In this document: positions 6,641 through 19,874 of the stretch, in pieces
Layout of the letters: every line of letters starts with the position of its first letter
Position numbering within the stretch: the stretch's first letter is position 1
From: a virus
DNA length: 21,641 bases
Direction: 5' to 3' (one strand)
Virus record (IMG/VR): IMGVR_UViG_3300034220_000005
Location: 1 to 21,641 of that record
Translations under genes and position numbers: made by a program
The notes under the pieces: model-generated
What the model was told of the DNA's origin: nothing
Database searches by the model: none
Seen by the model: only the letters and a program-made list of their open reading frames with translations

Positions 6641-9600
6641 CTAAGCTCGCACGGGTCGAAGCGCCTCACGCCTCCGCTGCCGACGCTCAATCTCGTCAGC
6701 GACTTCCTTCGCACTCGGCCCACGGAAGTCGCCGTAGAAGTGGTTCCCGCCAGCCCGGTCATCCCGGTCAGCCTTCTCGGCCAAAGCAGCCACCGCCCGC
6801 CACTGCGGGTTCGTCAGGACTGCCTCAGGCTTCCCGGTAGCGTTCATGGTCAGTGACGCGCCCGGCTTCAACACCCCGCCGTTGTCGTAGAACGACGCAT
6901 GCACATGGTTGGTGTGCGCCCGGTTCGGGTTCGAGGAGTTGCCATCGAAGTACGGCGCCCACTGACCCGCCCGGATGTTGCCCTTGTTGTAGTCCCGCAT
7001 GATGCGCCGGTTCCAGATCAGGTACGAGATGTTGTACGCCTTGCGGTACTTCGCCATGTGCTGCGCGATCCGCTCACCCGTCGACCCGGTGGCCATGAAG
7101 TCCCACGCCTTGTTCATCGACGGCTGGTGACCCGGATAGGTGCCAACGCTCGAGGCACCCAACTTCAGGCCGGCGAGACGGGCAGCCTGACGGCCGACCC
7201 CCAACGCCTTCCCGATGTTGCCGACCTTGCCGATGACTCCGGACAACACGTTTCCGGCGACGCTCTTGGCCTTGCTGATCAGCGCATCCTTGGCCATGCC
7301 CGGCACGCGCTTCACCATCTCCGCGAACGGCGAAGATCCCAGTTCCTTGAGCCGGTCCAGCGGGCCGGTGAACTTCTTGCCCAACTCACCAACGAAGTCG
7401 AACAGGCTGCCTCCGGTGTCGCCGCCGTCGGTGCTGGTGTCGAGCTTCCCGTTCCCACCCTTCAGCTCGAAGTGCAGGTGGGGCCCACTGCTGTTACCGG
7501 TTGAGCCGACATTGCCGATGACCTGGTTGCGGGCGACCTGCGCACCAGCGGTGACAGCAATCCGCGACAGGTGGGCGTACAGCGTCTGCTCGGCGCCGTG
7601 GTTGATTCGGATGTGGTTGCCGTACGAGTAGTTCCACCGCTTGACCGACGACACCTGGCCGGCGTCATAGGCGTGAACGGGGGTGCCTTGCCCGACAGGA
7701 AGGTCACCAGCCCAACGGGCCCAGGGATAGCGGGCGCGTGAGTGCTTGTTGGCGCCACCGGGGACCGGCTGAACCCCGCCACCCAGCCAGTAGCCGGGCA
7801 GGTCGCCCTTCTCGTTGATGTAGTCGAGGAAGTGCGGGTGCTTCTTCTCAAACTTGCGACGCGACTGCTTCCGGACAACGAACTCATCAGCGTGAACGAC
7901 ACCAGCCGGTTGGGTCTTAGCGCCCGGACCCGTCCAGCCGCCAGTGGCCCAACCTTTGGGCTTCCAGTCGGTGATCGTGGCCAGTTCGGTGGCGCCGACC
8001 AACCTGGCCAGGCTGTTGAACCCACCGATCAAACCCTTGTTGATGACCGTGTCGATGATGAACTCGATGGGCGTCTTAGCAGCCTTCTTCAGCCCGTCCC
8101 AGATCTTGCCGATGCCCGCCACCGCGTTGGTGAAGACCGACTGCAAACCGTTCTCCCCAGCACCCAGGATGGTTTTGACGCCGTCCCGTGCCGAACCGAT
8201 GGTGGTCTTGATCTTGTCACGGATGGCCGTGAACCGGTCGCTGATCCGCTTCCGAATCGCATCGGTCACCGAATAGAACGTGTCACGCATCGCCCGTATG
8301 GTTGCCGACGCCTTGGTCCGTGCATCGGCGATGGTTGACTTGATCCGGTCACGGATAGCACCGAAGCGGTCACTGATGCGCTTTCGGATGGCCTCGACCA
8401 CCGAGAAGAACGTGGACTTGATCGAAGCCCAGTGCTTGCGAATCAGGACATACGCCAGCCCGATTGGGCCAGCCAGCAACGGCAGGAGCCGCTTCCAGTT
8501 CTTGCCGACGTAGTCGATAACCGTCCGCACAGCCTTGCCCAGCCAGACGATGACCGTGCCGGCAACCTTCTTCACACCAGCGAACGCGGCGTTGACGACC
8601 TGGCGGAACGTCTCGGAGTGCTTGTAGGCGTAGATCAACCCGGCGACCAGGCCAGCGACAGCGACAACCACTAGGCCGATTGGATTCGCGGTCATCACAA
8701 TGTTCAACGCGGCCTGAGCGACGGCGTACGCCTTCGTCACCGCCGCAATCGTCTTGAACACGACAACCCCAGCGGCGAGAGCAGACACCAGCGGCACAAT
8801 CACCGCACGGTTGCGAGCCACGAAGCCACCGAACGAAGCCAGCGCAGCCCCGGCACCGCGGACGAAGCCGACGAACTCGCCTCCCGCCCCCGTGCCCTCA
8901 GTCATGCCGGTCACGAAGCTCGACAGTGCTGGGATCACCCGCGTCGTCAAGGTCGAAGCAACCCGGTCGATCACCGGGACTAGGGCCGTGCCAACCTGCT
9001 CTTTGAAGTTGCCAAACGACACAGACAGCTTCTCGCTGGCCGTCGCCGACGCAGCAGCCACACCGCCAACCTGCGACTCGACCTCGCCCAGGATAATCTT
9101 CTGGGCCTCGAGCGTCTTGCCGCTGGCAACCAGCGTCTTGATCTGGTCTTTCTGCTGGTCAGTGAACGTGACACCAGCCCGCGACAAGGCCGTGATGCCC
9201 TTCACGGGGTCGTTCAGCGCCTTGCCCAGCATCTTGGACCCGGACTCCACAGAGCCGAACCCAGCGGCCGACAGATCCACCGCGGCAGCTGTCGCCCGGT
9301 CGAACACGTTCGCACCCTGGCCGACTTCGTTGCGGACGTTCTTGAACGTCAGCAGCAGGTTCGCGCCCGACTGAATCGCTTCGTCGTCGATGCCCGTCTT
9401 GGCGCTGATCTGCGACGTGAGGATCCCGACCTGGCCAGCGCTAATCTTCGCCGCGCCGCCGGTCGCCTTGATGACCTGCGTGGTGACGGCGCCGACCTTC
9501 TGCGCTTCCCGAGCCTCAGCCAGCGAGTCACCGAAAAACTTGATGATCTTGTCGGCCGCGAGCAGACCGGCGATGGGAGCCGCGATGCCCTTAACGCCGC

Positions 9601-9760
9601 CGAGGATCCCCGAACCCAGCCGCGAACCGGCGGTGCGACCCGACTTGGTCGCCTGCTTCTCCACGCCACCGAACTGGCGGGCGATGTCCTTACCCAGCCC
9701 GCGGGTAGACACCGCCAGTGAGATGTAACCGGTGGCCAATTCGGTAGCAGCCACGGTCAC
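6641..9760 (-). CDS. Tail tape measure protein with M23-like and VldE/M15-like wall-peptidase domains
   Basis: This 1039-residue protein sets tail length, is threaded in the tail tube and is ejected first. It starts at GTG 9760, overlapping the TGA of the chaperone frame (GTGA). Residues 1-330 are the Ala/Gly/Lys-rich helical tape measure core. Hydrophobic segments lie near 318-345 and 357-379. Two copies of a 32-residue repeat are at 450-481 and 494-525. Residues about 676-768 form an M23 (LytM-like) domain with GTPVHAYDAG, TLYAHLS and the HLHFEL motif, but the usual first zinc ligand of HxxxD is Arg682. Residues about 871-957 (GTYPGHQPSMNKAWDF, ISYLIWNRRI, AHTNHVHASF) resemble the VldE/ARB-07466 C-terminal D-Ala-peptidase-like fold. 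The end has the typical PEAVLTNPQW motif. The wall domains probably help DNA cross the peptidoglycan. Confidence 0.9.
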   Translation of the reverse strand: MTVAATELATGYISLAVSTRGLGKDIARQFGGVEKQATKSGRTAGSRLGSGILGGVKGIAAPIAGLLAADKIIKFFGDSLAEAREAQKVGAVTTQVIKATGGAAKISAGQVGILTSQISAKTGIDDEAIQSGANLLLTFKNVRNEVGQGANVFDRATAAAVDLSAAGFGSVESGSKMLGKALNDPVKGITALSRAGVTFTDQQKDQIKTLVASGKTLEAQKIILGEVESQVGGVAAASATASEKLSVSFGNFKEQVGTALVPVIDRVASTLTTRVIPALSSFVTGMTEGTGAGGEFVGFVRGAGAALASFGGFVARNRAVIVPLVSALAAGVVVFKTIAAVTKAYAVAQAALNIVMTANPIGLVVVAVAGLVAGLIYAYKHSETFRQVVNAAFAGVKKVAGTVIVWLGKAVRTVIDYVGKNWKRLLPLLAGPIGLAYVLIRKHWASIKSTFFSVVEAIRKRISDRFGAIRDRIKSTIADARTKASATIRAMRDTFYSVTDAIRKRISDRFTAIRDKIKTTIGSARDGVKTILGAGENGLQSVFTNAVAGIGKIWDGLKKAAKTPIEFIIDTVINKGLIGGFNSLARLVGATELATITDWKPKGWATGGWTGPGAKTQPAGVVHADEFVVRKQSRRKFEKKHPHFLDYINEKGDLPGYWLGGGVQPVPGGANKHSRARYPWARWAGDLPVGQGTPVHAYDAGQVSSVKRWNYSYGNHIRINHGAEQTLYAHLSRIAVTAGAQVARNQVIGNVGSTGNSSGPHLHFELKGGNGKLDTSTDGGDTGGSLFDFVGELGKKFTGPLDRLKELGSSPFAEMVKRVPGMAKDALISKAKSVAGNVLSGVIGKVGNIGKALGVGRQAARLAGLKLGASSVGTYPGHQPSMNKAWDFMATGSTGERIAQHMAKYRKAYNISYLIWNRRIMRDYNKGNIRAGQWAPYFDGNSSNPNRAHTNHVHASFYDNGGVLKPGASLTMNATGKPEAVLTNPQWRAVAALAEKADRDDRAGGNHFYGDFRGPSAKEVADEIERRQRRREALRPVRA
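8186..8413 (-). repeat. Two-copy internal repeat in the tape measure gene
   Basis: Two copies encode near-identical helical segments. Both contain AIRKRISDRF followed by AIRD (K/R) IK (S/T) TI; each copy is 32 codons, with 12 codons between them. Copy 1 is 8318-8413 and copy 2 is 8186-8281. Such duplications change tape length and hence tail length in steps. Confidence 0.85.
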
Positions 9761-10499
9761 CCCCCCTGTAGTTCCGCCATGCGGCGGTCAATCTCTTCCA
9801 TCGACGCAATGATGTCGGCCTCAGTGCCGTACTTACTGACCCCCGGCGCCGAAACGATCTGCTCGAACCGGGTAGGCCAGTCGGACTCGTTGATTGGCTT
9901 CCTGGTCTGGTTGCCGGTCAGGGTTTGCAGCTGCACGACCGCGACCATCACCAACTCGAGCCGGTTGGTCATCTCGTCGAGACGGCGCGTGACACCCGAC
10001 TGGTCATGCTCTTCGGGGTACAGGGCCCGCCACAGGGCCGACTGTGCGGGCGGCTGCTGCATCAGAACGGTGTGAGCGTCACCCCACGGCAGCCCAACAT
10101 CACCGAGGTCGTCGAGCCGGTAGCCGTGCCGCAGAAGGTCGTACTGGACGGCTGCCCGATGGTCGTCGACCAGATCGAGCAGCCGGTCTATTCCCCCAGG
10201 TCAAGCCCGAGGTGCTTCGCCAGGTCGCGCTGCAGGGTCTCCCACTCGGCGTCGTCAGTCATGGTGTCGAACGAGTCGAGGATGGCCTTGTCGCCATCGG
10301 CGAGGTCTTCGAGCATCCCCCACAGCCGGTCTTCGGCGTCGAGGTGACGGCGGCGGCGGTTGTAGCCGGGGGTCACAACCTCGCGGGTCTTCTTGGGCAT
10401 CGTGTACTCGTTGCCCTGCGTGGTGAAGCTGAAATACTCGTCGGGTTTGGACTTGGTCTGCTTGGGCAGCCGGTCCTGTGGCTTCTTCGGTTCGGGCAT
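9757..10499 (-). CDS. Tail assembly chaperone, long form made by -1 frameshift (gpGT-like)
   Basis: The long chaperone joins the short frame (ATG 10499) to the downstream frame by a -1 slip at GGGGGAA (10191-10197), giving 247 residues. After the slip the protein reads GIDRLLDLVDDHRAAVQYDL, RHGYRLDDLGDVGLPW, then MQQPPAQSALWRALYPEEH, and ends in a Glu/Arg-rich helix with AELQGG. The downstream frame from its first ATG (10062) gives only 101 residues, but it continues open and protein-like through the whole 125 bases up to the slip site. That, with the classic position between major tail protein and tape measure, identifies the lambda G/GT-type pair. The long form binds tape measure and recruits tube subunits; it is absent from the virion. 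Confidence 0.88.
10150..10184 (-). promoter_or_regulatory. Stem-loop downstream of the frameshift site
   Basis: GGCTGC (minus, 10184-10179) pairs with GCAGCC (10155-10150). Inside the loop, TGGTC and GACCA (10160-10164 and 10168-10172) can form an inner stem. It begins 6 bases after the slippery run, a usual distance for a frameshift stimulator. The role is inferred. Confidence 0.45.
10188..10499 (-). CDS. Tail assembly chaperone, short form (gpG-like)
   Basis: This is the unshifted product of 103 residues, starting MPEPKKPQDRLPKQTKSKPD and ending KHLGLDLGE at a TAG immediately after the slippery run. The sequence is charged and helical (RRRRHLDAEDRLWGMLEDL, DDAEWETLQRDL). It is the more abundant chaperone and coats the tape measure during tail assembly. 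The ribosome site is weak (AGAAAG about 12 bases upstream). It sits in a small potential hairpin (10504-10517) just after the pseudoknot-like structure at 10521-10577, so initiation may be controlled by RNA structure; that last point is inference. Confidence 0.88.
   Translation of the reverse strand: MPEPKKPQDRLPKQTKSKPDEYFSFTTQGNEYTMPKKTREVVTPGYNRRRRHLDAEDRLWGMLEDLADGDKAILDSFDTMTDDAEWETLQRDLAKHLGLDLGE
10191..10197 (-). promoter_or_regulatory. -1 programmed frameshift site GGGGGAA
   Basis: On the minus strand the end of the short chaperone frame reads CTG GGG GAA TAG. Slipping back one base gives GGG GGA ATA and enters the downstream open frame, which runs without a stop to 9757. The two frames differ by exactly -1. 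A stem lies downstream (see 10150-10184). Confidence 0.8.
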
Positions 10500-10520
10500 G
10501 GGCGTAGGTCTTTCTACTGA

Positions 10521-10577
10521 GGCGCAGGCTAGATACTTGAGCGGGGGTCGGCTGCCTGCGCCGGATCACCGACCCCC
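10521..10577 (-). promoter_or_regulatory. Predicted H-type RNA pseudoknot between major tail gene and chaperone gene
   Basis: Two perfect 9-bp stems are interleaved in the intergenic RNA (minus strand). Stem 1 pairs GGGGGUCGG (10577-10569) with CCGACCCCC (10551-10543). Stem 2 pairs GGCGCAGGC (10562-10554) with GCCUGCGCC (10529-10521). The order is S1 5', S2 5', S1 3', S2 3', which is H-type topology. Loops are 6, 2 and 13 nt, sterically reasonable. No U-tract follows, so a simple intrinsic terminator is unlikely. It lies 12 bases after the major tail stop and ends 21 bases before the chaperone ATG. Possible roles: lowering chaperone expression, stabilising the 3' end of the major tail message, or a protein-binding site. 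The two stems could also be alternatives rather than simultaneous. Confidence 0.65.
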
Positions 10578-10588
10578 ACAACCAGGGG

Positions 10589-11176
10589 TTAGGCGGTGAA
10601 CACGCCGTCGTCGTCCAGCTCGGTCACGTAGACGCCGTTGACCTTGTAGGCGGTAACGGTGACCGTGTACGACCGAACTGCGGTGCCGACCAGCGGGCCG
10701 AACTCGACCCCGGTGACCTGTGCGTCGCGGACGATCTCGCGGTGCGTCGCCTTACCGGAGAAGGTGGTGACGACCAGCCGGCCGTGGTTGCCGATCTCAC
10801 CGGTGTCGTTGACCGTGATGAGGGTGCCGGTCGACGCGGTCGCCGGGGTGACGGTGACGTTCGCCGCGCCGAAGATCAGCCGCTTCACGTCGACGTTCGC
10901 GGACTGCAGCAGCTCGAAGTCGTACGTCCGGGTGAAGTCGGTCTGCAGCCGGAACACGATGTCACCGTTGCTGTCACGCTGCTCGTCGGTGCCGATGTCC
11001 CGACCGCCGCCGATGCCGTCCGGGCCGACGTAGCCGAGGTTCACGTATCCCGTGGCGAGCGCTGCGGTGGCGGTGGTGGGGACCGTCGCGGTACCAGCGA
11101 AGTCCCAGGCGCAGATGCCGGACGCGCCAGCCCTGGCGACCCCGATTTCGGCAACGGTGTTGTTGGCGAGTGCCAT
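10589..11176 (-). CDS. Major tail tube protein
   Basis: This 195-residue protein starts at ATG 11176 with a strong AAGGAG Shine-Dalgarno (5 bases spacing). It is beta-rich and acidic: MALANNTVAEIGVARAGASG, an N-terminal arm, DEQRDSNGDIVFRLQTDFTR near 65-84, FELLQSANVDVKRLIFG near 87-103, and a C-terminal VRSYTVTVTAYKVNGVYV strand pair. Size, composition and order (after tail terminator, before frameshifted chaperones) are those of actinophage major tail proteins, which polymerise as hexamer rings into the tail tube. It should be one of the most abundant late products. It is flanked by structured RNA on both sides (11260-11337 upstream, 10521-10577 downstream). Confidence 0.88.
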   Translation of the reverse strand: MALANNTVAEIGVARAGASGICAWDFAGTATVPTTATAALATGYVNLGYVGPDGIGGGRDIGTDEQRDSNGDIVFRLQTDFTRTYDFELLQSANVDVKRLIFGAANVTVTPATASTGTLITVNDTGEIGNHGRLVVTTFSGKATHREIVRDAQVTGVEFGPLVGTAVRSYTVTVTAYKVNGVYVTELDDDGVFTA

Positions 11177-11343
11177 TGGATCTCCTTGATGGATGGGCGC
11201 GCAGGACTTACCTCACCGTTGCCGGGGAGGGGAACAGGGGTAGGGTGCTAACAACCGCCCAGACGGCTACGGTTCTCACCGTCTGACGTGTTCGACTTCG
11301 CGGTCAGACACCGCGCAGCCCCACTTAGGTGGGGCTGTCTGCG
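11177..11343 (-). promoter_or_regulatory. Structured 167-base leader upstream of the major tail gene
   Basis: No ORF fits this interval. It holds dense inverted repeats: CAGACGG/CCGTCTG (11260-11266 with 11279-11285, 12-nt loop); CGCGGT/ACCGCG (11299-11304 with 11110-offset partner at 11310-11315); CAGCCCCAC/GTGGGGCTG (11316-11324 with 11329-11337, 4-nt loop). An alternative pairing GTCTGAC/GTCAGAC (11281-11287 with 11303-11309) competes with the first two. No U-run follows the stems in the minus direction. It may be an mRNA processing or stabilising leader, or contain a promoter; I see no convincing -35/-10 pair. The AAGGAG ribosome site of the major tail gene is at the low-coordinate end. 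Confidence 0.5.
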
Positions 11344-15281: not shown

Positions 15282-15309
15282 TGTTCCGTACCGGGTCTGA
15301 TGGAGGCTC
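15282..15309 (+). repeat. Left terminal inverted repeat of the outer IS (interrupted at its inner end)
   Basis: These 28 bases match the reverse complement of 17842-17870 apart from 5 differences. The 29th base of the repeat is displaced to 16578 by the inner IS insertion. Confidence 0.85.
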
Positions 15310-15335
15310 TGGTGTGTCCCTGCTTCCGTGGCGTC
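15310..15335 (+). repeat. Left terminal inverted repeat of the inner IS
   Basis: Pairs with 16549-16574 in reverse complement, 20 of 26 positions, including the terminal TGGTG and GTCCC blocks. Confidence 0.8.
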
Positions 15336-15376
15336 TGAGTTTCTGGAGTCTGGTGTCCTGAGATCCAGGAGGACGG

Positions 15377-15682
15377 ATGGGACGACGGGGCTACTCGGCG
15401 GAGTTTCGACGCAAGGTCTTGGACCGGCTCGCTGGAGGACACAGCGTGGCCAGCGTCGCGCACGACCTCGACCTCAGCGACCAGACGATCTACAACTGGC
15501 GCCGACAGGACCGCATCGACCGCGGCCTGCAACCGGGTCTGAGCACCCGGGAGAACGCCGACCTGGCAGCGGCGAAGAATCGCATCGCCGAGCTCGAGAC
15601 CGAGCTCGCGGTCAGTCGCCGCGCCCTGGAGCTGGTGAAGGAGCAGACCAGCCCAAAAGCAGGTACGCGGCCATCGAGGTGA
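15377..15682 (+). CDS. OrfA of the inner IS3 element (unshifted product)
   Basis: This 101-residue DNA-binding protein is made without frameshifting. In IS3 elements OrfA alone often binds the terminal repeats and damps transposition. It ends SPKAGTRPSR after the slippery site. Confidence 0.85.
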   Translation: MGRRGYSAEFRRKVLDRLAGGHSVASVAHDLDLSDQTIYNWRRQDRIDRGLQPGLSTRENADLAAAKNRIAELETELAVSRRALELVKEQTSPKAGTRPSR

Positions 15683-16533
15683 TGGCCGCGGAGAAGCTAC
15701 CCGTCCAGGTCGGCTGCCGCGTCCTGGGCGTCGCAGAGTCCGGCTACTACGCGCACCGCAGCCGGACGCCGTCGGAGCGCTCGATCCGCCACGCGATGTT
15801 GACCGATCTGATCCGCCAGATCCATGTCGAGTCCCACCAGATATACGGCGGTCGGCGGGTCCACGCCGAACTCACCCTCGGCCGTGGCGTCCTGGTCGGC
15901 CACCACCAGGTCGAGCTGTTGATGCGGCGCGCGGGCCTGCAAGGCCTGTCCGGGCGCCGGAAGTGGAAACGGATCCGGGCCGACGACATCGCCAGCGACC
16001 GCGTCGAGCGCCAGTTCGCGCGCACCGGACCTGACCAGCTGTGGGTCACCGATATCACCGAGCACCCCACCCGGGAGGGCAAGGTGTACTGCTGCGCCGT
16101 CTTGGACACCTACTCACGCCGCGTCGTGGGCTGGTCGATCGACTCCTCACCGACCGGTGCGTTGGTGACCAACGCCCTCGGCATGGCGATCGACACCCGC
16201 CTCGGCAAGCACGCCGAGCCGGGCACGATCATCCACTCCGATCACGGGGTTCAATTCGGTTCCTGGGCGTTCACCAAGCGAGCCCGGGACTCCGGCCTGC
16301 TGGCCTCGATGGGCAGCATCGGTGACTGCTACGACAACTCCATGATCGAGTCGTTCTGGTCACGGATGCAGGTCGAGCTGCTCGACCGGAAGAAGTGGAA
16401 CACCCGCCTCGAGCTAGCCAGCGCGATCTTCGAGTACCTCGAGATCTGGCACAACCGCAAGCGCCGCCACAGCCAGCTCGGATGGCTCACTCCGCTAGAG
16501 TTCGAACGCAACCGCATCATCACCGTGGCATGA
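15377..16533 (+). CDS. IS3-family transposase OrfAB of the inner element (frameshift fusion)
   Basis: OrfA (15377-15682, 101 residues, MGRRGYSAEFRRKVLDRLAG) has an AGGAGG Shine-Dalgarno 5 bases upstream, a helix-turn-helix (SVASVAHDLDLSDQTIYNWR) and a leucine-zipper-like helix (IAELETELAVSRRALELV). The slippery heptamer CCCAAAA (15652-15658, frame C CCA AAA) allows a -1 shift into OrfB, which is open to TGA 16531-16533, giving a 385-residue fusion. OrfB has the HTH_21 segment (IYGGRRVHAEL) and the DDE integrase core: Asp in WVTDITEH, Asp in IIHSDHGVQFGS and Glu in MIESFWSRMQVELL, with the C-terminal YN..R-like WHNRKRRHSQLG. All expected catalytic residues are present, so it is probably active. 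Confidence 0.9.
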
Positions 16534-16548
16534 GAATCCACAAATCTC

Positions 16549-16574
16549 GACTCCTCCGAACCCGGGACGCACCA
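16549..16574 (+). repeat. Right terminal inverted repeat of the inner IS
   Basis: Ends GGGACGCACCA, the inverted partner of 15310-15335, and is followed directly by the CTC target duplicate at 16575-16577. Confidence 0.8.
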
Positions 16575-16601
16575 CTCTCATTCCACGTGAGGATGAGAGT
16601 C

Positions 16602-16923
16602 ATGGCAGCACCAAGGAAGTACCCCGAGGAGCTTCGGGAGCAGGGCGATCAGGATGGCGCTCGATCTGCGGCGTGACCCGGCGACTCGGAGCGGCGCTCT
16701 GCGCCGGGTCGGTGATCAGCTTGGGATCAACCCCGAGACGTTGCGGAACTGGGTCACCCAGGCTGAGGTCGACGCCGGCGACCGAGCGGGCACCACGAGC
16801 GAGGAGGCTCGGCGGGTGGTCGAGCTCGAGCGTGAGGTCCGCGAGCTGCGCCGGGCCAACGAGATCCTGAAGACGGCGTCAGCGTTTTTCGCCGCGGCGG
16901 AGCTCGACCGCCGACTGAAGTGA
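16602..16923 (+). pseudogene. OrfA of the outer IS3 element, frameshifted near its start
   Basis: The gene begins MAAPRKYPEELRE (16602-16640) in one frame. The rest (MALDLRRDPATRSGALRRVG from 16654) is in the next frame. Thirteen bases separate the two parts (16641-16653) where twelve would keep the frame: one extra base in CAGGGCG gives the expected RE-RAIRMALD-type junction when removed. The remaining part holds the helix-turn-helix (GDQLGINPETLRNWVTQAEV) and a leucine-zipper-like helix (VELEREVRELRRANEIL), ending ASAFFAAAELDRRLK. Translation from the ATG at 16654 could still yield an N-terminally shortened protein. A GTTTTTC run (16884-16890) is a weak candidate for the usual -1 shift into OrfB. 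Confidence 0.8.
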
Positions 16924-17855
16924 TCGTGGACTACATCGACGCCTACCGTCACTTGCACGGGGTCGAGCCGATCTGCCGGGTCCTCACCGAGGCCGGAACT
17001 CAGATCGCCCCGAGCACCTACTACGCCGCCAAGGCGCGCCGGCCGTCAGCCCGGTCGGTCTCCGACTCGGCGACGACTCGGTTGATCAAGGAGGTCCACG
17101 CCGAGAACTACGGCGTCTACGGCGTCCGGAAGGTCCACGCCGAGCTGCACCGCCAAGGCCACCCAGCCGCGCGCTGCACCGTCGCCCGGCTGATGCGGTC
17201 GGCGGGTCTGCGTGGGATCAGCCGGGCCAAGGGCCCTCGCACCACGATCCCTGGCGCTGGGCCCGACACTCGGCCCGACCTGCTGGACCGCCACTTCACC
17301 GCCTCGGCGCCGGACCGCGTCTGGGTCGCCGACATCACCTACTGCCGCACGTTCGCCGGGTGGGTCTACGCCGCGTTCGTCGTCGACGTGTTCTCCCGGA
17401 GGGTGGTGGGGTGGCAGCTGTCGAGGAGCCTACGCACCGACCTGGCCCTCGACGCCCTCGAGATGGGCCTGTGGACACGGGCCCACGCCGGCCGTGACAC
17501 CACCGGGGTGATCGCGCACTCCGACAAGGGAGTGCAGTACCTCGCGGTGCGCTACACCCAACGGCTCGCCGAAGCAGGTGCGGTCGCCTCGGTCGGGTCG
17601 ACCGGCGACAGCTACGACAACGCCCTGGCCGAGGCGTTCAACTCGTTGTTCAAGGCCGAGTTGGTCCGCAACAAGGGACCGTGGTGCTCGATCGACGACC
17701 TCGAGATCGCCGTCGCCGAGTACATCGACTGGTTCAATCACCGGCGCCTGCACGGCGAGATCGGACTGATTCCACCCGTCGAGCACGAACAGCACTACTA
17801 CCATCACAACCCCGTGCCGACTACCGTCGACGCGTCACTTCAGAGCCTCTACTAA
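16920..17855 (+). CDS. OrfB integrase-like transposase of the outer IS3 element
   Basis: The frame is 311 residues from GTG 16920, overlapping the OrfA TGA (GTGA); in a working element it is made as an OrfAB fusion by -1 frameshift. It carries VDYIDAYRHLHGVEPICRVL at the N-terminus, HTH_21-type NYGVYGVRKVHAEL, and the DDE triad: Asp in WVADITYC, Asp in IAHSDKGVQYL and Glu in ALAEAFNSLFKAEL. The C-terminal YIDWFNHRRLHGEIG motif is also present. The core is intact, but the OrfA frameshift and the split left terminal repeat make the element probably unable to move itself. Confidence 0.88.
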   Translation: MIVDYIDAYRHLHGVEPICRVLTEAGTQIAPSTYYAAKARRPSARSVSDSATTRLIKEVHAENYGVYGVRKVHAELHRQGHPAARCTVARLMRSAGLRGISRAKGPRTTIPGAGPDTRPDLLDRHFTASAPDRVWVADITYCRTFAGWVYAAFVVDVFSRRVVGWQLSRSLRTDLALDALEMGLWTRAHAGRDTTGVIAHSDKGVQYLAVRYTQRLAEAGAVASVGSTGDSYDNALAEAFNSLFKAELVRNKGPWCSIDDLEIAVAEYIDWFNHRRLHGEIGLIPPVEHEQHYYHHNPVPTTVDASLQSLY

Positions 17856-17870
17856 ACCCGGTACGGGACA
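17842..17870 (+). repeat. Right terminal inverted repeat of the outer IS
   Basis: Inverted partner of 15282-15309. It overlaps the last codons of OrfB and is followed by the CAC target duplicate at 17871-17873. Confidence 0.85.
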
Positions 17871-17899: not shown

Positions 17900-18469
17900 T
17901 CAGTCGAACTCGGGTACGGCGTCGCAATGATCATTGTCGTGCGACTCAAAGTCGACCGACGCCTCGTAGACGACAGTGCCGATACGAGCGCGGCAGTAGT
18001 CGCAGCCACCAGCACCCACCCGACGCCATCCGACTCGCGCCGGATCCGCGCGGGTCGACTGCACCACGGTTTCTCGGGCCCCGTTCAGCACGGTCCGCGA
18101 CAGGCCACCCAGCACCTTTACCAGTGCGATATCGACAGCAGGACTATCTGAGAACAACGGGGCCACCGACCAACGAGCCAATGCCTCAGCGCGACCATCC
18201 GTGGGCGCGTCTGGCATCACAGCAGCGAACCGCTTACGGACCCCAGCCTCCAAGCGCATCAGGTCATACCAGTCAGCGGAGACTGAGGCAGCCGACAGGA
18301 AGTAGGTGTTGACCAAACCGGGCAGCACGTCGAGCAAACCGTCTCGGACCTTCGTTGCAGCTGACAAGTCGAACTGGCGCCAGTACGTCAGTAGTTCCGA
18401 CTCGGCCAACGTAGACACGTCCCGCATCGCCGCCCGGTACAGCGCAACCTCACGCGCCGGCAGCGGCAT
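17900..18469 (-). CDS. MuF-like minor head (head morphogenesis) protein
   Basis: I choose ATG 18469 (MPLPAREVALYRAAMRDVST), which overlaps the portal 3' end by 20 bases; a longer frame reaching 18643 has a low-complexity Leu/Arg start that is only a shadow of the portal gene. The 189-residue product has an N-terminal helical region (ELLTYWRQFDLSAA, VNTYFLSAASVSADWYDL). A second helical part follows, containing VLGGLSRTVLNGARETVV. It ends with a MuF/capsid-morphogenesis signature: CDYCRARIGTVVYE, FESHDNDHCDAVPEFD. The C-terminal Cys/His cluster is intact, so the IS block lies just after the gene, not in it. Few copies are expected inside the head, next to the portal. Confidence 0.8.
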   Translation of the reverse strand: MPLPAREVALYRAAMRDVSTLAESELLTYWRQFDLSAATKVRDGLLDVLPGLVNTYFLSAASVSADWYDLMRLEAGVRKRFAAVMPDAPTDGRAEALARWSVAPLFSDSPAVDIALVKVLGGLSRTVLNGARETVVQSTRADPARVGWRRVGAGGCDYCRARIGTVVYEASVDFESHDNDHCDAVPEFD

Positions 18470-19874
18470 CCGGCACCGTAGCGACAACAGGAGCAGCAGC
18501 ACGAGCAGCCTCAGCGGCCGCAGCCAGAGCAGCGATGTTCGACCGCCCCGCAGTGCGCAGCCGGTCCTGTCTGACCCGCCGAATCTCCTGATCCGACAAC
18601 CCGAACTGCTCGAGGGTGAAGTCCCAGTCGGGGCTGAGCGCACCCGCCGCGATCATCTTCACCGCACGGTCGGCAGAGGCGGCCGGCGTCGGGGTCGACG
18701 GGTCCACCCACAGCGACTGCACGGTGCCAGGCTCCGGAAGTTCGCCGTCGCGCCACAGAATGCACAGCTCGCCGAGGTCAACCAGGCCAAGGTCGTACTG
18801 GGACTGGCGGCGGATAGCCCGCTTGTCGAGGCGCATGTCCGCCCGCTGGATTGCGTCAGCCGAGGCGGGGTTGTCGGTGGTGAATCCGAGGTGCGTGGCG
18901 GGGATGCCAGTCGCTGCGGAGATCATCTGCGCGTAGGTGCGGAGCAGGTCGGAGAACGGCTGCGGGGATGCGGAGGCGAACTGGCCGGGGACCGGCAACT
19001 GGTCGTTGTCATCTCGCGGGGCCATCAGCATGCGGCCGATGACAGCAGCCCACTGACCGACCGGGGTGCCGTCCTCTTTGACAAACATCGACTCATCGGC
19101 ACCCATCAGGTACCGCTGCGGGGCGGCGTAGAACTCGCGGGCGATCTCCATCCCCAGCAGAGTCCGCATGCCCGAGTCAGTCAGGGCACGAACAGCGCGG
19201 GTGATCTCCGACCGACCGTTCTCACGGGATGATCGGGGACGGTTCAGCAGCACCGACACAGGGACGCGGCCCAGCTTGTGCTGGTCCCGATCGGTGACGA
19301 CCAGCCGGCCCCGAAGGCGCTCGACGGTAATCGTCTCCTCGGGGAGGTACAGCTTCCATCCGTTGAGCACACCGAGGCCGTCGTACAGCTCGACCATTGC
19401 CGAGTCGATCCGACGCTGGCGGGCGTTCCAGTTCGCTGTCATCCGGTTCGGCGACTCAGCCTTGACCAGCACCTCAGGCTCATCGTCAGCGCCCGTACCA
19501 ACCGTCAGGTAGGACAGGCCAAAGATCAGCGCATCCAGGGTGGCCTGGCCTGACTCAACCGCAAGATGGTTCTGTGCGTAAACCTCCGCAAGGCCCAGAT
19601 CCATGCCGGGCGTGTACCAACCACGCCAATCCATCCGCTCGTCGATGACGTCAACCACGATCTCAGGCCACGCCGCTACCGCCTCAAGGTCCCGCAGGTG
19701 CGGGGGGATCGAGATGCCCAGGTCACGCACGATCCGTGAGCCCTCGTAGTACGCCTCCTGCCGCTTGTTCGCGACCTGGGCGCGGCGCAACTGCGAGATG
19801 AGCTGCAGCCGCAGAGACTCCTCCGCGTCCGACAGGGCGTTCAGGGTGGCAACCTCGAAAGGAAGGGCGGTCAA
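18450..19874 (-). CDS. Portal protein (SPP1 gp6-like)
   Basis: This 474-residue protein starts at TTG 19874, with AGGAAAGG about 8 bases upstream and 15 bases after the large terminase stop. Family features are: RQEAYYEGSRIVRDLGISIP near 38-57, VVDVIDERMDWRGWY near 73-87, ALIFGLSYLTVGTG near 117-130, PVSVLLNRPRSSRENGRSEI, and TGIPATHLGFTTDNPASADA in the C-terminal clip/crown region. It forms the dodecameric ring through which DNA enters and leaves. The C-terminus is an Ala-rich helix ending DAAAGA. The gene order terminase-portal-MuF is canonical. Confidence 0.92.
   Translation of the reverse strand: MTALPFEVATLNALSDAEESLRLQLISQLRRAQVANKRQEAYYEGSRIVRDLGISIPPHLRDLEAVAAWPEIVVDVIDERMDWRGWYTPGMDLGLAEVYAQNHLAVESGQATLDALIFGLSYLTVGTGADDEPEVLVKAESPNRMTANWNARQRRIDSAMVELYDGLGVLNGWKLYLPEETITVERLRGRLVVTDRDQHKLGRVPVSVLLNRPRSSRENGRSEITRAVRALTDSGMRTLLGMEIAREFYAAPQRYLMGADESMFVKEDGTPVGQWAAVIGRMLMAPRDDNDQLPVPGQFASASPQPFSDLLRTYAQMISAATGIPATHLGFTTDNPASADAIQRADMRLDKRAIRRQSQYDLGLVDLGELCILWRDGELPEPGTVQSLWVDPSTPTPAASADRAVKMIAAGALSPDWDFTLEQFGLSDQEIRRVRQDRLRTAGRSNIAALAAAAEAARAAAPVVATVPDAAAGA

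Follow-up and report, generated by a model that had tools for sequence, protein, structure and literature searches.

A candidate leader RNA with two alternative pseudoknots upstream of the tail assembly chaperone gene in actinobacterial siphophages

The leader between the tail tube and chaperone genes

The sequence analyzed here, referred to below as the window, is the 21,641 bases of an IMG/VR virus record. Its minus strand encodes a major tail (tube) protein (MTP) of 195 amino acids at positions 10589–11176 (phrog_117, E value 9e-25), which is 27–38% identical to the MTPs of Mycobacterium, Gordonia, Rhodococcus, and Tsukamurella phages. Downstream on the same strand, between MTP and the tape measure gene (6641–9760), lies an ORF of 103 amino acids (10188–10499, with its ATG at 10499). 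This ORF had no match in PHROG or Pfam, and the name tail assembly chaperone (TAC) is given to it from its position. For the tape measure protein, profiles of endolysins and metallo-endopeptidases matched in addition to those of tape measure proteins. In the chaperone ORFs (10188–10499 and 9757–10062), no obvious slippery heptamer of the form X-XXY-YYZ is seen near the end of the first, and the sole match to that pattern, AAACCCG at 10448, lies early in it. Further along, in the head-gene region, two adjoining IS3-type transposase gene sets occupy 15282–17870, with 35-nt inverted ends (15282–15316 and 17836–17870) that are 80% complementary. A VG15-like head gene (17900–18643) adjoins these sets and is probably interrupted by them, and an Rfam ALIL frameshift pseudoknot lies within the IS3-type element at 16881–17012. 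Given this insertion in the head genes, the window may be a decaying prophage.

MTP and TAC are separated by 89 nt (10500–10588), rather than the 88 given in the preliminary description, which had reported two crossing stems at this site. Both stems are present as described. On the minus strand, GGGGGTCGG (10577–10569) pairs with CCGACCCCC (10551–10543) to form the helix S1, and GGCGCAGGC (10562–10554) pairs with GCCTGCGCC (10529–10521) to form the helix S2:S2', each over a perfect 9 bp. The helices cross in the order S1-S2-S1'-S2', that of an H-type pseudoknot, with loops of 6 (TGATCC), 2 (AG), and 13 nt (GCTCAAGTATCTA) that, judged from their lengths, can span the helices. When G-U pairs are counted, S1 extends to 12 bp, its 5' arm GTGGGGGTCGGT covering 10568–10579 and its 3' arm GCCGACCCCCGC covering 10541–10552, each around the perfect core. 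Simple (non-pseudoknot) folding yields one or the other hairpin, varying with the ends of the stretch that is folded, and never both stems. As had been argued, a chance origin is unlikely, since even an 8+8 bp crossing pair arose in just 3 of 20,000 shuffles that kept the dinucleotide composition of the gap. Nowhere else in the window do two 9-bp stems cross within a span of 80 nt.

The loop strand S2 (10554–10562) can pair with either of two downstream strands. The proximal partner, S2' (10521–10529), gives the H-type pseudoknot with a duplex energy of −22.2 kcal/mol. The distal partner, S2'' (ACCTACGCC, 10501–10509), stands beside the start codon, one base before the ATG. It makes 7 of 9 pairs with S2, has one central C-A mismatch, and gives an RNAduplex energy of −11.4 kcal/mol. 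Just ahead of it is a Shine-Dalgarno-like GAAAG (10510–10514) of the chaperone gene, read directly from the sequence, at which relatives have GAAAG(A)GG. In the window's near relatives L136, L222, and L229, S2'' is intact as GGTCTGCGC. A distal pseudoknot strand at the ribosome-binding site is found in the family, and the window has it only in degenerate form. As its S2'' is weakened, the window leader may be biased toward the open state of the model proposed below. At the gathering score, Rfam returned no family match for the window leader or for 11 related loci, and its only match in the window was the IS3 ALIL pseudoknot. We rejected a programmed frameshift signal, as the element is located upstream of the TAC start codon and not 3' of a slippery site.

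Recurrence, covariation, and gene linkage

We assembled related loci from scans of viral contigs, genome contigs, and actinobacterial genomes, using automated extraction and curation by eye. Unconvincing loci (distant or different MTP relatives, fragments, and misplaced starts) were removed by eye before any statistics. When the A1 profile was used on 395 and 200 genomes, Ig-like C-terminal domains overwhelmed its matches, and only those to positions 1–190 were used. As single-protein queries, the window MTP and TAC found no relative among the viral contigs. The window TAC had no match in annotated phages, and alignment A2 found nothing in the genome contigs.

Immediately ahead of TAC, a crossing two-stem element occurs in 166 distinct MTP/TAC loci forming 55 clusters at 75% identity, and the figures for these clusters describe element-bearing loci rather than prevalence among all phages. 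The carriers are phages of Mycobacterium, Gordonia, Rhodococcus, Nocardia, Tsukamurella, Corynebacterium, and Streptomyces, including D29, Kampy, TM4, Che8, the Gaia-like Nebkiss, Emalyn, Sleepyhead, TPA4, R4, and BFK20. Seven of the first eight related loci have long crossing stems of unrelated sequence directly upstream of TAC; in the remaining one, L008, TAC overlaps MTP and there is no element. Across loci the sequence is almost wholly different, while the pairing is kept. S1 is a GC-rich hairpin of 10–20 bp across the family and lies a median of 9 nt from the MTP stop. Phages that lack the element have a short MTP–TAC gap or none at all (15 nt in lambda, 34 nt in HK97, 28 nt in PA6, and overlapping genes in phiC31). 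The relatives L204–L210, from other actinobacterial genomes, also have no element.

In nearly every cluster, S2 is complementary to two tandem downstream copies, S2' and S2''. The S2:S2' duplex is significant against shuffled targets (p < 0.05) in 42 of the 55 clusters (Fisher 5e-49), figures that are partly shaped by selection, as elements were chosen for strong S1 and S2'. The S2:S2'' duplex, in the initiation region, is significant against shuffled targets in 42 of 55 clusters as well (Fisher 3e-47); these figures are cleaner, yet stronger distal duplexes could themselves have been the pairing used in the choice. When loops are swapped in from other phages or clusters, the median share that pairs equally well is only 2%. 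Both copies use the same loop bases (at least five) in 45 of 55 clusters, and the two duplexes are therefore mutually exclusive. They are also near-isoenergetic, with a median difference of 0.4 kcal/mol by stacking energies only. From the end of the distal duplex to the TAC start codon that follows it, the median distance is 2 nt, and the duplex overlaps a Shine-Dalgarno-like match by at least 2 nt in 29 of 49 cases. Clusters without a clear distal copy are L016, L017, L032, L238, and L248.

The three strands can be read directly in individual carriers. Emalyn has the loop TGCACCGGGCC, the proximal copy GGCCCGGTGCA, and the start region AGGCCTGGTGCA-ACC-ATG. Given in the same order, the strands of R4 are GCGGACCTC, GGTCCGC, and GGAGGTCCGC-AACCCC-ATG, those of D29 are TGGCGGGC(CTT), GCCCGCCA, and AAGGTTCGCC-ATG, and those of the M. 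abscessus prophages are CACCTTGG, CCAAGGTG, and CAAGGTG-ATTGAC-ATG. TM4 (L212, 4206–4314) has three tandem target copies (CACCAGG), the last of which is the Shine-Dalgarno sequence itself (CACCAGGAGG). In L002 and other M. abscessus prophages, the distal copy occupies the beginning of the coding sequence (ATGGCTGCA), which would leave the start codon itself covered.

Compensatory changes among homologues were the check that the preliminary description had set for its pseudoknot, and the idea survived it. Among ten near relatives, S1 has two-sided changes at 8 of 16 pairs, and the S2 helices covary too. For the two alternative structures in these ten, 94.5% and 95.8% of cells are paired and 9 and 10 pairs have two-sided changes; none of 500 shuffles was as high on the latter count, and slid controls collapse. 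This covariation is mostly in S1, and that of S2 is seen across clusters. Between L226 and L222, all three S2-family strands have changed together (GCACAGG/CCTGTGC/TCTGTGC versus GCGCAGG/CCTGCGC/TCTGCGC). In total, there are 41 distinct core S2 sequences.

Single interruptions of the Watson-Crick helices were also counted on the coding strand as G-U or A-C. S2:S2'' has 18 G-U versus 3 A-C. S1 has 22 versus 0, although its arms were first picked allowing G-U, and the S2:S2'' count is the less biased of the two. A flank-based count for the S2 helices ran beyond the helix ends and was uninformative, and internal interruptions were used instead. A G-U excess is expected of RNA and, with the covariation, indicates that the element is an RNA. 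Among loop bases paired in both states, counted across all clusters, 321 are Watson-Crick with both copies; for 34 the G-U pair is confined to the distal copy, and for 7 to the proximal copy. The start-site copy is thus systematically softened, as if the repressing duplex were tuned weaker.

The element is linked to TAC and not to MTP. In TPA4 and its relatives, L015, L018, and L110–L114, a further gene or a several-hundred-base stretch lies between MTP and TAC. In such separated loci, the element is directly before TAC, 380–1050 nt from the MTP stop, and it stays with TAC at hundreds of bases from MTP in L004, L015, L018, L110, L111, L113, and L114. An extra coding stretch is present downstream of MTP in L004, L110, L111, L113, and L114, and is antisense in TPA4. 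Leaders with energies of ≤ −45 and ≤ −15 kcal/mol on our two criteria make up 78% of TAC leaders, and none of the 282 starts of other ORFs in these loci reached both. Among the roles first suggested for the pseudoknot, a translational one is favored over a 3'-end stabilizer of the MTP mRNA, because the element follows TAC past an inserted gene. The suggested switch between two hairpins had missed the third strand; once S2'' at the TAC start is included, the choice is instead between two pseudoknots that share S2.

A proposed translational switch and its alternatives

From the comparison of sequences, we put the probability at roughly 0.6 that the element is a cis-acting 5'-leader RNA whose two mutually exclusive pseudoknots limit TAC translation. 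In our model, the GC-rich hairpin S1 would present the loop strand S2, which could pair with S2' or with S2''. The S2:S2' pairing would form a compact H-type pseudoknot just 3' of the hairpin, leaving the ribosome-binding site free, and the S2:S2'' pairing would form a second pseudoknot covering the Shine-Dalgarno and start codon region. Chaperone synthesis would thereby be held well below tail-tube synthesis, and with S2' acting as a decoy, repression would be partial and not complete. The near-equal stacking energies of the two duplexes fit such a two-state device. Because S2' is transcribed before S2'', a fresh mRNA may start open and close later, which would make the leader a timer. Folding of this kind in cells and repression by S2:S2'' are inferred, as are any timing or trigger. 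We give about even odds to the broader proposal that this is an undescribed three-way-pairing device common to actinobacterial siphophages, in which the loop strand would choose between a decoy and the TAC start and so set or time chaperone dosage relative to the tail-tube protein with no protein regulator.

In the main rival account, control would instead be exerted on the transcript, with S1 or the whole pseudoknot serving as a partial terminator or as a barrier to decay or processing, so that MTP mRNA would exceed TAC–tape measure mRNA. Phage Kampy carries the element, and its late RNA-seq coverage is highest over genes 14–22, gene 22 being MTP (PMC4626039), which would also fit partial termination or decay at the element. 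In cluster O phages, a stem-loop on the right side of MTP has been called a terminator (PMC4351075), and the median of 9 nt between the MTP stop and S1 likewise speaks for a transcript-level role. However, neither S2' nor a third strand that covaries at the start codon would be required for termination, and in loci with a gene between MTP and TAC the element keeps its place next to TAC. On its 3' side, S1 in the window is flanked by TCAAGTATC, with no U-run, and no intrinsic terminator (GC-rich hairpin plus U-run) was found in the window at 9700–11300. We regard a transcript-level account as rather unlikely, and note that translational control and partial termination or decay need not exclude each other.

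Some ribosomal-protein mRNAs have a pseudoknot at the ribosome site to which their repressor binds, and one paper reportedly deals with rpsO control in mycobacteria. As in those autogenous operons, a host protein, the chaperone, or the tube protein could recognize the pseudoknot or its repeats and repress TAC. Conservation of shape and not of sequence would suit a protein of this kind, but the repeats vary freely as long as S2 changes along with them, as the 41 distinct cores attest, which argues against sequence-specific though not shape-specific binding. We consider a protein regulator improbable.

It is also conceivable, though improbable, that S2:S2' alone has a function, such as that of a ribosome roadblock or stabilizer, and that the likeness of S2'' comes from duplication or from S2 mimicking the anti-Shine-Dalgarno sequence. 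The window and a few other clusters are indeed without a good S2'', and S2 resembles the anti-Shine-Dalgarno in some families (CACCTTG). In many families, however, neither S2' nor S2'' looks like a Shine-Dalgarno sequence (GGCTGC, GTCCGC). The distal copy also keeps a constant position at the start codon, S2'' covaries with S2, as its G-U over A-C count reflects, and its complementarity to S2 reaches the same significance as that of S2'. GC-rich DNA yields some inverted repeats at random, but neither chance nor a function at the DNA level, with the inverted repeats serving recombination, replication, or DNA binding, can be seriously entertained against the rarity of 8+8 bp crossing pairs in shuffles, the recurrence in 55 clusters with covariation, the coding-strand G-U bias, and the lack of any other ORF start passing both strict criteria.

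Significance and comparison with known systems

The production of abundant tube protein and scarce chaperone from one operon is usually credited to frameshifting and weak ribosome sites. Here, a widespread, strongly covarying leader element lies exactly at the MTP–TAC junction. It is present in the model phages D29, TM4, Che8, R4, BFK20, and Kampy, where it has apparently been overlooked or taken for a terminator. The element appears to be widespread and undescribed: we found no description of it in the open full-text literature, though one may exist among subscription papers. It offers a candidate three-strand switch that is testable in tractable systems, an RNA family to catalogue, and what would be a natural case in which one RNA strand chooses between two copies of its target.

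The closest parallels are the leaders of rpsO (S15) and the alpha operon (S4), which likewise have an H-type pseudoknot with its distal strand at the Shine-Dalgarno or start codon, and exert low-level control over one gene of an operon. Those leaders repress with a protein ligand, whereas in the element two tandem 3' strands would compete for one loop. Riboswitches of the preQ1 type also hide or free the Shine-Dalgarno sequence by means of a pseudoknot; in contrast to them, no conserved aptamer-like core was seen in the element, and pairing is conserved but sequence is not. In the maturation-gene leader of phage MS2, delayed folding gives a short window of translation. There, too, a minor virion-assembly protein is limited by early versus late leader folds, but the structure is different, and for the element such timing is only proposed.

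Other RNAs are alike in location. In mycobacteriophage Giles (NC_009993), a "pseudoknot RNA" ncRNA is annotated at 10907–10974 at the TAC start. Its architecture is different, as it lies inside the annotated gene and has one dominant 17-bp hairpin and a crossing pair not above chance (158 of 200 shuffles were as good). The frameshift pseudoknots of TAC genes belong to the same operon and the same fold class, but are found inside the gene downstream of the slippery site, whereas the element precedes the start codon. The SAS and ESAS of cluster K mycobacteriophages are repeats at translation starts (PMC3203893), but these have a fixed 13-bp sequence at many genes, whereas the element occupies one locus with a variable sequence constrained by pairing alone. 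As a class, and by analogy, the likely mode of the element resembles that of the pseudoknot regulators at ribosome sites (S15, S4, and preQ1), from which it differs in its duplicated target strand.
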